Part shown: positions 247 through 24,747 of the stretch, one piece after another | How positions within the stretch are numbered: position 1 is the first letter of the stretch | Layout: every line of letters starts with the position of its first letter | Source: Pseudochrobactrum kiredjianiae | Lineage (GTDB): Bacteria; Pseudomonadota; Alphaproteobacteria; Rhizobiales; Rhizobiaceae | Reading direction: 5' to 3' | Assembly: GCF_030362795.1 (NCBI RefSeq) | Contig: NZ_JAUCBM010000001.1 | Coordinates: 558,001 to 622,000 of the forward strand | DNA length: 64,000 nucleotides | Program-made: the position numbers and the translations under genes | Notes under the pieces: generated by a model | Seen by the model: the letters and a program-made list of their open reading frames with translations, nothing else | Told to the model about the DNA's origin: nothing | The model's database searches: none

Positions 247-414
247 TTAGCCTAAAGCTGCAATCAGGCTTGTTGAGATTGCCCAGATAAGAAATGCGGC
301 GGGAACAGCCAGACCGGCAAGAAAGATCCCGAGAAAAACAAATGCCGCTTCATCTGTGCGGTTTTTCATCTGATCGGCAGGCTTTTGCCAAAGAGCGGGT
401 ACACCATCATACAT
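247..414 (-). CDS. Small single-pass membrane protein, function unknown
   Basis: This 55-residue reading frame starts MYDGVPALWQKP, has a charged stretch (residues 14-22), then one hydrophobic segment (about 24-50, FVFLGIFLAGLAVPAAF and onwards) that runs almost to the C-terminus. The start is chosen because GGAGGAG lies 5-6 nt upstream of the ATG, one of the strongest ribosome sites in the window. The gene stands alone, and the stem-loop at 41-72 would end its transcript. I do not recognise a family. Size and topology fit small accessory subunits or regulators of larger membrane complexes, but nothing nearby names a partner. Confidence 0.6.
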   Translation of the reverse strand: MYDGVPALWQKPADQMKNRTDEAAFVFLGIFLAGLAVPAAFLIWAISTSLIAALG

Positions 415-870
415 TGCAGGTCTCCTCCGATATAGTCTTAATGAATTTATTATGATCCGAATGTGAAATACTGCAATACTGAATATAAAAAGATTTGAAT
501 TGCACGAAAATGATGGTATTAGCTATCTTGTTGTGAGTTTGAATTTGAATTTTGAAATATTTTCTACAGAATCTGATTGATTTTTTTAATTTAAGTCTAT
601 GATATTTATAAATTTTTCTTTTATACTGTAGATTCTGAAGTATCTGTAATTTCAATAAATGCTGAATGTCTCGAAAAATATGAGATTTCTGTATGGATTG
701 TCGTTGAGATAACCCGACAAATTTAAGCAAAATCGGTGTCTGTTGAGTCGGGCAAATCACACGCACTTTGCTGCAGCGCACATGACTTCTTTGATCCCAT
801 GATCGTGATGGAATCCATAAGACGGATGGCTGCCTTGCAATGCTGCATAACTGTTATGCATTATTGTTTA
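415..870. other. AT-rich intergenic stretch without recognisable gene
   Basis: About 450 bases between the small membrane protein and the sRNA promoter. The part from roughly 470 to 700 is strikingly AT-rich compared with the rest of the window. Open frames here have no ribosome sites and no protein-like composition. It presumably holds the minus-strand promoter of the gene at 247-414; I see nothing else in it. Confidence 0.5.
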
Positions 871-898
871 TTGTCGGTTTTTTTATCTGCCGTTATAT
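871..898 (+). promoter_or_regulatory. Sigma-70-type promoter of the alpha-r14-like sRNA
   Basis: TTGTCG (871-876), a 16-nt spacer and TTATAT (893-898) form a plausible -35/-10 pair. Transcription would start near 904-905, exactly at the foot of the first sRNA hairpin. The fit between promoter and RNA 5' end is what supports the call. Confidence 0.5.
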
Positions 899-903
899 GT
901 CTG

Positions 904-1019
904 TCCATCGGGTTCGTTCTCCTCCTCCCAATTGAGCCCGATGACGGAATGCGGCACTCCTCCTCCCAGCCGCATCCATGATCAGGCCGCGCATCTCCTC
1001 CCCCGCGCGGCCTTTTTCT
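904..1019 (+). ncRNA. Alpha-r14 (NfeR1/cuckoo-type) trans-acting sRNA
   Basis: Three consecutive hairpins each display a CTCCTCC-type anti-Shine-Dalgarno motif in the loop. Stem 1 is 906-915 with 934-943 (10 bp), loop motif at about 919-929. Stem 2 is 949-955 with 969-975, motif at 957-967. Stem 3 is GGCCGCGC at 985-992 with 1005-1012, motif in the loop, followed by TTTTTCTTTT, so it doubles as the terminator. Length (about 115 nt), three-hairpin layout and loop motifs match the alphaproteobacterial alpha-r14 family (NfeR1 of Sinorhizobium) and the related cuckoo RNAs, which pair with ribosome binding sites of many transport and metabolic mRNAs. The family call rests on motif and shape, not on an alignment. 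Confidence 0.85.
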
Positions 1020-1239
1020 TTTCTCCCGAGACTTTTTTGATATTGCGGTGCTCTCTGTCTTTCAGACGAAAGCATATTCAATTTTGTTTGAATTTTTGCT
1101 GAGCCCTGTTTGATTTTGGTCAATGCAGTGTAAGAGTGCACTGCCTGATCTGATGTTGCTGACAGAGCTTTGTTTGCGATCTGACGGTCAAATCTGTTTA
1201 CTCCCTGCCATTTGTTCATTGCCTATGAAGGATATAAAA

Positions 1240-1911
1240 GTGAAGCAGCGCGATAGTTCGGTATTTCTGAATTCCTATTCCGGTTTTCTGTTTGATATGG
1301 ACGGTACTCTGGTCAATTCCATTCCGGTTGTGGAGCGGATTTGGCTGGAATGGGCAGCTGAGCACGGCATTGACGGACAGGAATTGCTGAAACAGGTGCA
1401 TGGTATCCGCGTTGTTGATGTGATCAAAATGCTGAACATGCCGCATCTTGATCCGGACGCGATTGCAGCAGTGTTTCTTGCTGAAGAAATGCAGGACTTC
1501 GCCGGTATCCGCGCTATTGCCGGTGCAAAAGATTTTATAGCCAGCCTGCCTGCAGACCGTTGGACAATTGTCACCTCAGCGCCGCGTGAACTGGCGGAAG
1601 CCCGTTTGGCCGCCGCCGGTCTTCCGGTGCCGGAAACGATTGTCGTGGCTGAGGATGTTACAGCCGGTAAACCTGACCCGTCCGGCTATCGTCTGGGCGC
1701 ACAGCGTCTTGGCTTTGATGCTGCCGATTGTCTGGTGTTTGAAGATGCGCCAGCCGGTATTGCAGCAGGGCAGGCGGCAGATGCGCAGGTCGTGGTTATT
1801 ACTGAAACGCACAGCCATCCGGTGACCGGTGGTAATGTAGACTTTCGTGATTTTACTAATTTGGGTCTGATGCAGGATAGCGACGGGCGTTTGCGTCTTA
1901 GTGTTGGCTAA
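1240..1911 (+). CDS. HAD-family sugar-phosphate-type phosphatase
   Basis: Cytosolic haloacid-dehalogenase-type hydrolase of subfamily IA, which dephosphorylates small phospho-metabolites through an aspartyl-phosphate. Motif I is FDMDGTLVNS (nucleophile Asp near residue 19 and Asp 21), motif II is TSAP, motif III is the Lys of AGKPDP, and motif IV is VFEDAPAGIAAG. A helical cap lies between motifs I and II. I prefer the GTG start because AAGGA sits 7 nt upstream; ATG at 1225 is in frame but has no ribosome site. Length, about 223 residues, is normal. Closest relatives by motif are sugar phosphatases such as E. coli YfbT/YniC and glycerol-3-phosphatase. The true substrate cannot be read from sequence. 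Confidence 0.88.
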   Translation: MKQRDSSVFLNSYSGFLFDMDGTLVNSIPVVERIWLEWAAEHGIDGQELLKQVHGIRVVDVIKMLNMPHLDPDAIAAVFLAEEMQDFAGIRAIAGAKDFIASLPADRWTIVTSAPRELAEARLAAAGLPVPETIVVAEDVTAGKPDPSGYRLGAQRLGFDAADCLVFEDAPAGIAAGQAADAQVVVITETHSHPVTGGNVDFRDFTNLGLMQDSDGRLRLSVG

Positions 1912-16010: not shown

Positions 16011-16241
16011 ATGAAGGCTGCGGAATTTTCTGCTGGTGAGAGGCACCGGCATCCGCCTTGCGTTTGTTTGAAGCAACCGGGTTGATCATTACAGAACTAA
16101 CACGGTACCGGGCCCCTCTGGCGAGAGTTTTTACGGCGCTCTCGTGATGTCGGTACTGCCGCAAATTTAGCCGGCGGACATGTGATCATGAAAATCTGTT
16201 TCATGTTTTTTGCGGAAGGCCATCAGGCCATTTCCGCTTTT
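16011..16241 (+). promoter_or_regulatory. Structured 5' leader of the terC-like gene, candidate terC-motif RNA
   Basis: Between the transpeptidase stop and the TerC-like start lie 401 bases with clear RNA structure. AAGGCTGCGGA (near 16014-16024) can pair with TCCGCCTT (near 16032-16039) around a GCTGGTG/CACCGGC stem. GGTACCG (near 16104) encloses a CGAGAG/CTCTCG stem and closes with CGGTACT (near 16151). CATGAAA/TTTCATG (16187-16193 with 16199-16205) is followed by six T. A strong terminator hairpin follows. Position in front of a TerC-family gene in an alphaproteobacterium suggests the described terC RNA motif. The canonical yybP-ykoY manganese riboswitch signature is absent. Ligand unknown; the assignment is by context and needs a covariance search. 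Confidence 0.6.
16212..16241 (+). terminator. Leader terminator in front of the terC-like gene
   Basis: GCGGAA (16212-16217) pairs with TTCCGC (16232-16237), with an inner GGCC/GGCC stem around an ATCA loop and a TTTT tail. It stands 80 bases before the start codon and after the structured leader. This is where a transcriptional attenuator would be expected. Confidence 0.65.
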
Positions 16242-16321: not shown

Positions 16322-17410
16322 ATGAGCACGCCTACACCTCATAAAACTGTTCTGAGTTATTTTACCTGGTCATTTATTGTCACCGTTGTCGGTTTGGCAC
16401 TCGGCGCATGGCTTGGCTGGCAGTCCTCCGGCACAATCGGTGGTATGGCCTCGATCTTCTTTATCTGTGCGGTTCTCGCCGTGCTGGAAATCTCGCTGTC
16501 CTTCGACAATGCCGTGGTCAATGCCAATAAGCTGAAAGACATGACGCCGGAATGGCAGCATCGCTTTCTGACCTGGGGTATTATCATTGCCGTTTTTGGT
16601 ATGCGTATTATCTTCCCGCTGCTGGTAGTGGTGATTGCTGCGGGCATCGGCCCGATTGAAGCGATTGTGCTTGCTGCATCGAAGCCGGAAGAATATGCGC
16701 GGATCATGACGGATGCGCATCTGCCGATTGCCGCTTTCGGCGGTACATTCCTGTTGATGGTCGCGCTGACCTATTTCTTCAACTCCGATAAGGATGTGCA
16801 TTGGTTTGGCCCGTTGGAACGCCCGATGGCACGTCTTGCGGAAATCAAAGGTATTGAAGTTGCGCTCGTTCTGATCCTGTTGCTGACGTTCTCGTCGGTG
16901 CTTGGTGAGGTCGAAGGCACAACATTCCTTTATTCCGGTATTTACGGCTTGCTGACTTTCCTCGCAGTGGAAGTTCTGGGTGGTATTCTTGATGCTTCAC
17001 AGAAAACGCTGAATGCAGCGGCGCAGGGTGGTTTTGGTGCCTTCCTTTATCTCGAAGTGCTGGATGCCAGCTTCTCCTTCGACGGTGTGATCGGTGCATT
17101 TGCTCTGTCGCAGAACCTGTTCGTGATTGCGATTGGTCTGGGTATCGGTGCTATGTATGTGCGTTCTATGACTATTATGCTGGTCGAAAAAGGCACGTTG
17201 AGCGAATACCGCTATCTGGAGCATGGCGCATTCTATGCGATCCTGATCCTCTCGGTGGTGATGTATTTCCAGACACTCGTGCATATTCCGGAAGTGATTA
17301 CCGGTCTTGGCGGTGCGGTGCTGATCGGTATCGCCTTCTGGGCATCGGTTCGTCACAATCGTCGTGAAGAAGCACATGCTGAGCAGGGCAAGACTGTTGC
17401 GGCTGAATAA
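16322..17410 (+). CDS. TerC/DUF475-family integral membrane protein
   Basis: Inner-membrane protein of 362 residues with about nine hydrophobic segments. The two family hallmarks are ISLSFDNAVVNANKL (near 60-72) and EVLDASFSFDGVIGAFA (near 245-260). These are acidic, Asp-bearing motifs in membrane helices that are duplicated in TerC-clan proteins and thought to bind a cation. Relatives are linked to manganese export, metal co-translocation or tellurite resistance. AAGGAG lies 8 nt upstream of the ATG. The long structured leader suggests control by RNA. It ends in a clear terminator and is monocistronic. Confidence 0.88.
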   Translation: MSTPTPHKTVLSYFTWSFIVTVVGLALGAWLGWQSSGTIGGMASIFFICAVLAVLEISLSFDNAVVNANKLKDMTPEWQHRFLTWGIIIAVFGMRIIFPLLVVVIAAGIGPIEAIVLAASKPEEYARIMTDAHLPIAAFGGTFLLMVALTYFFNSDKDVHWFGPLERPMARLAEIKGIEVALVLILLLTFSSVLGEVEGTTFLYSGIYGLLTFLAVEVLGGILDASQKTLNAAAQGGFGAFLYLEVLDASFSFDGVIGAFALSQNLFVIAIGLGIGAMYVRSMTIMLVEKGTLSEYRYLEHGAFYAILILSVVMYFQTLVHIPEVITGLGGAVLIGIAFWASVRHNRREEAHAEQGKTVAAE

Positions 17411-23670: not shown

Positions 23671-24747
23671 TTACTGCTGCCGCAGGACATTATTCCATTT
23701 TTCAATCAGACGGCTACGCTTGACCTGATCGAGATAGACCATCAGCCCTGGGCTGACCGGCACCGGTTTCAGCTTACTGCCGTAGATTTCCTGCATCGTC
23801 AGAGCAGTATTCTCACCGGCAACTTCAGGGCTGACCGCCGGAATTTGCAGCTGGCGGGCGAGAATGGTCTGGCCTTCTTTCGACATGAAAAATTCAAGAT
23901 AGCGCCAGCCAAGTTCCGGTGAGGCGGCAGCCTCCGGCACCAGACCGATACGGGACATCACCACCGTATAATCTTTGGGCAGAATAATGCCGACATCCGG
24001 ATTGCGGGATGCCCAGTCGGCGGCATAAGAACCGAGAATATTATAACCGAGGACAAAGCGCCCGTCAGCTACACGCTCTAAAATGGCCTGACTGGTGGAA
24101 TAAAGTTTGACACCGGCGGCACCCATCGCGCGAATGACTGTCCAGATATCGTCAAACTGCTCCTGATCGCGTGCCATAAAGAGAAAGCCCACGCCGGAGC
24201 GTTCAATATCATAGGTGCCGATACGGCCAAAGACCGCTTCTCCCTGTTCTTTGAGATAGGCGATAAATTCTGCACGGGTTGACGGTGGTTTGCGGGTTTT
24301 AAAATCCGGTTTGTGATAAACGAAAACGGCCGGCTCGAAAGTCAAAGCATAGGCTGTATTGCGCCAGTTCGCCCAAGCCGGCCAACGTTCGCTCATTGGT
24401 AAAATACCGGATTGTGCATAGCCGTCATTGGTGAGTTTGACCTGCAAGTCCATTGCCGAGGAGAAAGCAAAGTCGGCGGTTTTCAGCCCGTCATCCGTTT
24501 CACGCACGATACGCTCATAAATCTCGGTGGTGAGCATATCCTCATAACGCACAGTGATGTCTGGGTTTTCTTTTTGAAAGCCTTCAATCATCGGGCGGGC
24601 AAGCGGCTCGTCTAGCGATGAGTAAACAACCAGTATCTGTGCATTTTTATTGCCGTTGAGAGCGGGAAATAAGACAGGGGCGGTCTGTGCAGGGATGCTC
24701 CCCAGCACAAGTACACCGAAAATAATACTCAGCCACAAACGGCGCAC
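23671..24747 (-). CDS. Periplasmic ABC-type/PgtC-like binding protein linked to TctDE
   Basis: A 358-residue extracytoplasmic binding protein. A signal peptide (RRLWLSIIFGVLVLGSIPAQTA) leads into a two-lobed SBP_bac family 1/6 fold (ILVVYSSLDEPLARPMIEGFQKENPDITVRYED; later FLMARDQEQFDDIWTVIRAMGAAGVKL). Starts with GTG, 7 nt after GAGGAGG. No ABC permease or ATPase is next to it. It is divergent from tctD-tctE and resembles PgtC-type proteins that present a ligand to a sensor kinase, as in Salmonella phosphoglycerate sensing. A sensory rather than transport role is inference. Confidence 0.82.
   Translation of the reverse strand: MRRLWLSIIFGVLVLGSIPAQTAPVLFPALNGNKNAQILVVYSSLDEPLARPMIEGFQKENPDITVRYEDMLTTEIYERIVRETDDGLKTADFAFSSAMDLQVKLTNDGYAQSGILPMSERWPAWANWRNTAYALTFEPAVFVYHKPDFKTRKPPSTRAEFIAYLKEQGEAVFGRIGTYDIERSGVGFLFMARDQEQFDDIWTVIRAMGAAGVKLYSTSQAILERVADGRFVLGYNILGSYAADWASRNPDVGIILPKDYTVVMSRIGLVPEAAASPELGWRYLEFFMSKEGQTILARQLQIPAVSPEVAGENTALTMQEIYGSKLKPVPVSPGLMVYLDQVKRSRLIEKWNNVLRQQ

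Follow-up and report, generated by a model that had tools for sequence, protein, structure and literature searches.

The window, by which we mean the whole analysed stretch of 64,000 nucleotides from Pseudochrobactrum kiredjianiae, carries near its start a small RNA gene (hereafter copy A), which stands between a divergent open reading frame (ORF) of 55 residues and a gene for a HAD-type phosphatase (table 1). Pseudochrobactrum is a genus near Brucella and not known as a plant symbiont, and a literature search covering the titles and the openings of abstracts of the papers listed gave no treatment of small RNAs in this genus. The order of the 55-residue ORF on the minus strand and then the RNA on the plus strand was found in all seven genus genomes, with the start of the ORF lying 478-567 bases before the RNA. 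This ORF had no match in Pfam or NCBIfam; by eye, it looks like a membrane protein. Among the best 80 records found for the phosphatase, the six closest had 91-94% identity in the best segment, while the next had 56%, and three of the six were from Pseudochrobactrum. A record titled Bacillus subtilis SK6B4 (JAHREI010000001.1, L038) holds a stretch whose protein shares 91% identity with the phosphatase and is probably mislabelled or contaminated. Farther along the window, a terC RNA motif (RF03067; 61.6 bits vs. a gathering score of 39.9) was observed at 16100-16162 (+), shortly before an ORF at 16322-17410.

Table 1. Features of the copy A locus and candidate targets in the window (aSD, anti-Shine-Dalgarno)
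Feature	Position	Strand	Remarks
55-residue ORF, divergent neighbour, candidate target	247..414	-	in 7/7 genomes
TGCA-N5-GCAT, overlapping the dyad	836..848	+	one base short of TGCA-N6-GCAT, the LsrB motif in S. meliloti, which it resembles
17-bp dyad TGCATAACTGTTATGCA, candidate LsrB/VtlR box	844..860	.	GCAT-N3-TG-N3-T at 845-857; fits TGC-N11-GCA too
-35 element ATTGTC	870..875	+	17 bases before the -10 element; 7/7 genomes; consensus CTTGAC-N17-CTATAT (in part of PMC8844928)
-10 element TTATAT	893..898	+	TTATAT or TTATAA in 7/7 genomes; alphaproteobacterial consensus CTATAT (in part of PMC10746234)
ar14-family small RNA, copy A	904..1019	+	Rfam boundaries 903-1018; fold z = -6.09; 7/7 genus genomes
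Hairpin 1, loop CCTCCTCCC at 921-929 (aSD a)	906..943	+	stem retained in 4/4 distinct sequences
Hairpin 2, loop CCTCCTCCC at 959-967 (aSD b)	946..977	+	fold, alignment
Hairpin 3, TCTCCTCCC at 994-1002 (aSD c), into a T-rich tail; intrinsic terminator	984..1018	+	fold, alignment
HAD-type phosphatase, downstream of copy A	1225..1911	+	longest ORF from 1123
Solute-binding protein (SBP_bac_8), candidate target	23671..24747	-	GAGGAGGAC before the GTG start

Family, fold, and copies of the RNA

Copy A matched the Rfam family ar14 (RF02344) on the plus strand with 76.9 bits, against a gathering score of 58.8, over model positions 1-123 of 123. The sequence-only reading had proposed an alpha-r14-type sRNA here, and this was borne out by the covariance model at its full length; judged by its sequence, copy A is a member of the known ar14/NfeR1 family. 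The next-best family, CcsR1 (RF02791), reached 26.9 bits against its gathering score of 65.3, and CcsR1, SorY, sX13, and anti-hemB were all rejected as the family of copy A, each falling far under its own gathering score. There was no suhB among the two matches of the gathering-score scan over the whole window, and ar15 was absent from the five matches on the copy A stretch at E <= 1.

The predicted fold of the stretch 904-1019 (MFE -49.4 kcal/mol) has three hairpins whose loops are CU-rich; none of 200 shuffles was equally stable, and this three-hairpin observation is far from chance. Both the hairpins with CTCCTCC in their loops and the double role of the last one as a terminator had been claimed beforehand; the hairpins were confirmed at about 906-943, 946-977, and 984-1013, and the third has a 9-pair stem that runs into TTTTTCTTTT. 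CCUCC is the core of the 16S rRNA anti-Shine-Dalgarno. CTCCTCC was present in all three loops and, in the 64 kb, at seven places on the plus strand, five of them within copy A, and at one on the minus strand, while CCTCCTCCC occurred at 921 and 959 only (none on the minus strand). The motif CCUCCUCCC, which is expected to be unpaired in each hairpin of an ar14 RNA, was exact in loops a and b and one base off in loop c (UCUCCUCCC). All 29 pairs of copy A form in the four distinct sequences; slid partners did so in 25-45% of cells. A single pair of hairpin 2 was changed on both sides within the genus (C-G, U-A), and since 111 of 500 shuffles equalled this one two-sided pair, the covariation is consistent with the fold rather than strong. 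Copy A is like NfeR1/alpha-r14 of Sinorhizobium meliloti (SmrC14/SmelC397) in having three aSD-loop hairpins, the third of which is the terminator, within 115-123 nt; it is unlike NfeR1 in its third loop, TCTCCTCCC.

Copy A and a second copy, copy B, were each over the cut-off in all seven Pseudochrobactrum genomes, among them the source of the window; NfeR1 likewise has more than a single copy in a genome. In the wider GTDB family sample, an ar14 match was present in 60 of the 61 genomes at E <= 0.001 and over the cut-off in 56, and it was found in 0 of 14 control genomes. Copy B is located immediately 3' of a DUF1127 gene (a 48-residue ORF; PF06568, E 8.1e-15), whose protein was identical in the seven genomes, and copy B would yield a similarly looped RNA that is controlled differently. 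This placement resembles the CcsR1-4/CIN1 loci of Rhodobacter sphaeroides and others, where a DUF1127 gene is followed by aSD-loop RNAs (PMC10253847, in part); unlike these, copy A is preceded by a promoter of its own and, farther upstream, by the 55-residue ORF instead of a DUF1127 gene. A DUF1127-like ORF upstream was detected by regular expression at 15 of 30 family loci, which were those of the best-scoring matches in the wider-family search and not every match, and this count is an undercount (L021 was visibly missed). The genome that holds copy A also holds, besides copy B, two ar15/AbcR loci over the cut-off and one weaker ar14-like stretch. AbcR1/AbcR2 (RF02345, ar15) share the aSD-type loops but belong to a different family from copy A; AbcR1/2 bind Hfq, whereas NfeR1 is Hfq-independent in S. 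meliloti, as stated in passages of PMC8844928 and PMC10746234. Six of the seven genus genomes also gave weak ar14-like matches (30.5-42 bits, under the cut-off) whose loops are CU-rich, with two of them adjacent in three genomes (L003 and L126-L133; G000:C5:93949-94046 and relatives). These matches are possibly a further type of aSD-loop RNA.

Candidate targets and probable mode of action

The three loops with a CCUCC core would pair with G-rich ribosome-binding sites and prevent docking of the 30S subunit; translation of the paired mRNAs would halt, and decay of the mRNAs may follow. The anatomy of copy A supports ribosome-site occlusion as in NfeR1, and copy A is very probably an ar14 RNA that works by blocking ribosome sites.

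Candidate targets were evaluated within the window, where the 55-residue ORF, the binding protein starting at 24747, and tctC had been suggested from the letters alone. Pairing with copy A amounted to -11.9 kcal/mol for the 55-residue ORF and -11.7 kcal/mol for the binding protein, and only one of 37 other window starts scored lower (-12.0), by pairing inside the coding sequence. These two suggestions held up, and the third did not: the tctC-family ORF (start 23430) reached -8.2 kcal/mol, sixth of the 37, and with this moderate pairing tctC was rejected as a strong target. The claim that GGAGGAG precedes both 24747 and tctC was mistaken, the actual sites being GAGGAGGA and only GGAGGA, respectively. 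The background of 37 starts comprised 36 of the 43 ORFs and one alternative start; six ORFs had been dropped by hand (five that are probably spurious or antisense and a sixth that has a separate score), and a further one was lost at the window end. The start of the 55-residue ORF was preceded by GGAGGAGACC in six of seven genomes and by AGAGGAGACC in the seventh. A close relative of the 24747 protein (88-94%) was found in five of the six other genomes, and GGGAGGA stood ahead of its start in four of these five. An exact 8-base complement preceded six window starts, including those of the 55-residue ORF and the 24747 protein, although some of the six are probably not real genes.

Genome-wide candidates were collected by pattern searches for GGGAGGAG at 3-10 bases before ATG, with 12 hits in this genome against 3 for the control and 68 against 21 in the seven genomes. 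Five of the 12 stood before ORFs of 274-499 residues and seven before ORFs of 5-74. One of the larger ORFs encodes an oxidoreductase with Fer4_20 and pyridine-nucleotide oxidoreductase domains, whose best NCBIfam matches were under their cut-offs and whose gene we take, from its protein, to be preT. Before preT, GGGAGGAG was found in all seven genomes by pattern, and in the six that were read the same kind of protein begins there. For a mmgE/prpD gene, the pattern was found in five of seven genomes, two of which were read; the other three large ORFs encode a thiolase, a PotI-like permease, and a cytosine/purine permease. After the opening cost, pairing reached -16.4 for the thiolase, -14.4 for preT, -13.1 for mmgE/prpD, and -12.9 for the cytosine/purine permease, but merely -5.4 for the PotI-like permease. 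Since loops of this kind are expected to pair with Shine-Dalgarno sites in general, such target lists are weak evidence. Based on these comparisons, preT, mmgE/prpD, the 55-residue neighbour, and the 24747 binding protein are better candidates than ntrB or tctC. The targets are presumably transporter and catabolic genes (preT, mmgE/prpD, solute-binding proteins, and the neighbouring small ORF), the chance for each being near even or somewhat short of it.

In a different role, copy A would be mainly a global decoy, its 16S-mimicking loops titrating ribosome sites or competing with AbcR1/2 and copy B. The presence of copy B, the two ar15/AbcR loci, and the weaker ar14-like stretch in the same genome is in line with this, as are the likewise CU-rich loops of AbcR and copy B. 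We nevertheless regard a decoy as very improbable, considering that repression of specific mRNAs, namely ntrB and two transporter mRNAs, via three redundant aSD motifs has been measured for S. meliloti NfeR1 (PMC10746234, in part) and that the long complements are not generic, because GGGAGGAG before ATG occurs only 12 times in the genome. Occlusion of the ribosome sites of particular mRNAs is thus the action that we favour for copy A.

Promoter and upstream box

Copy A would be transcribed from its own sigma-70-type promoter, and its transcript would terminate at the third hairpin. A promoter at the right distance had been anticipated, and ATTGTC-N17-TTATAT was indeed found at 870-898, with four of six bases identical to CTTGAC and five of six to CTATAT. 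The arrangement that characterizes ar14 promoters, a sigma-70 CTTAGAC/CTTGAC-N17-CTATAT and a conserved upstream stretch, was present, with the upstream block in all seven genomes; NfeR1 likewise has a sigma-70 promoter with N17 and an LsrB-type motif upstream. A simple scan, with rules built on the E. coli promoter consensus and loops of 3-8 bases, listed neither the promoter nor the terminator of copy A and was uninformative; it gave one other promoter-like site (704-733), where shuffles averaged 1.6.

Upstream of the promoter lies the 17-bp dyad, which reads TGCATGACTGTTATGCA in the other six genus genomes instead of TGCATAACTGTTATGCA. In Brucella and Agrobacterium, the VtlR/LsrB box has the form GCAT-N3-TG-N3-T (PMC7486931, in part), which is expected near -61 to -49; in copy A, it was found at 845-857 (-59 to -47 relative to 904), and it was kept in all seven genomes. 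The whole window contains three fits to this consensus on the plus strand and five on the minus strand. LsrB in S. meliloti needs TGCA-N6-GCAT, as stated in part of PMC10746234. The best VtlR/LsrB box of copy A is centred near -52, unlike the S. meliloti position (-72 to -57), to which the TGCA-N5-GCAT of copy A is close.

The full box pattern TGCATRNCNGNTNTGCA occurred at two to four sites per genome and 21 sites in the seven genomes, with none for the reversed control. Copy A accounted for seven of these sites, AbcR1 for five, and ahpC for six, while the remaining three (L197, L204, and L206) had no common neighbour that we recognised. The two genomes in which the exact pattern was not found at AbcR1 fit the shorter VtlR consensus there. 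The distance from the box centre to the start of the RNA model was nearly equal for the two RNAs, 54 or 55 bases for the exact sites of AbcR1 and 51 for copy A. The peroxiredoxin gene linked to the box is presumably ahpC, as named from its protein; the box was upstream of it in six of seven genomes (L199, L200, L201, L202, L207, and L214), the fetched stretch of L200 holding only the start of ahpC, judged by eye from the alignment. The occurrence of the box before this ahpC-like gene in six of seven genomes suggests a LysR-type regulon in common with AbcR1. The ahpC link is an observation of the present analysis alone, because ahpC does not occur in the main texts of the papers that deal with Agrobacterium VtlR, Agrobacterium LsrB, and B. 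melitensis VtlR.

In this genome, AbcR1 is found immediately downstream of a LysR-type gene, and AbcR1/2 adjoin lsrB in S. meliloti (PMC8844928, in part). We infer that the LysR protein beside AbcR1 is a putative LsrB/VtlR orthologue that binds the box of copy A. VtlR of Brucella melitensis is a positive regulator of AbcR2 and of three DUF1127 genes, as described in part of PMC12595884. Because the box is common to the AbcR1 promoter, a LysR-type activator of the LsrB/VtlR kind, at or around 844-860, probably switches copy A on.

The same dyad could be read as an NtrC site, in which case copy A would be repressed by NtrC like S. meliloti NfeR1 and not activated there by LsrB/VtlR. Both dyad variants of the seven genomes fit TGC-N11-GCA, the NtrC signature quoted in passages of PMC10746234, and a second fit (831-847) overlaps the one at 844-860; this signature, however, has 44 fits across the window. 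Moreover, the S. meliloti site is located at -116 to -101, where copy A has no identified NtrC site, and not near -52, and its authors did not find the site evident in Agrobacterium or Brucella promoters (PMC10746234, in part). The full dyad was found again before AbcR1 and ahpC and the VtlR consensus fits it, so NtrC is less likely than LsrB/VtlR to own the dyad, and we consider NtrC repression from it very improbable. Activation by an LsrB/VtlR-type protein remains our reading of this region.

In the alignment of the seven oriented copies A, conservation extended from near 831 to just past the terminator, and the flanks diverged. That this conservation stems from a short coding sequence and not from an RNA gene is practically negligible as an explanation: ORFs such as 893-1219 (-) or 736-981 (+) overlap the stretch and, in the window copy, three of six reading frames are stop-free across the block, but the differences among the seven copies preserve base pairs and alter residues in every frame, and the sharp ends of the block at the promoter region and the terminator, together with the full-length Rfam match, speak against it.

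Comparison with the NfeR1 circuit

Control of NfeR1 in S. meliloti comprises activation by LsrB and repression by NtrC, as reported in passages of PMC10746234. The dusB-ntrB-ntrC cluster is present in the Pseudochrobactrum genome studied here. The ntrB start had no strong aSD complement, with -5.6 kcal/mol in the 60-base stretch around it; in a 100-base stretch, the best pairing (-9.7 after the opening cost) was 49 bases upstream. With its ribosome site pairing so poorly, ntrB was unsupported as a target. The weak pairing of ntrB and the moderate pairing of tctC cut against a simple transfer of the S. meliloti circuit. An NfeR1-type RNA rewired in Pseudochrobactrum, with LsrB/VtlR control kept, ntrB lost, and preT and other catabolic or uptake genes gained, is conceivable, though we hold it rather unlikely. 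The gene preT lies about 13 kb from copy A in this genome, and its function is presumably pyrimidine catabolism. If the rewiring were true, an aSD-loop RNA would link nitrogen scavenging to the sensing of redox or stress without involving the NtrBC loop.

To the known family, the present analysis would add an LsrB/VtlR-type box shared with AbcR1 and ahpC, a DUF1127-linked copy B, the apparent absence of the ntrB target, and preT as a conserved candidate. A rhizobial regulator is thereby extended to Pseudochrobactrum, with a promoter box that can be read from seven genomes and is common to AbcR1 and ahpC. With this common box and with ntrB, a well-characterised target, apparently missing, one can test whether LsrB control is the ancestral part of the circuit and the NtrBC loop a part that symbionts have added. 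As an RNA, copy A is ordinary, but specific predictions open to testing follow from its conserved switch region and likely targets.
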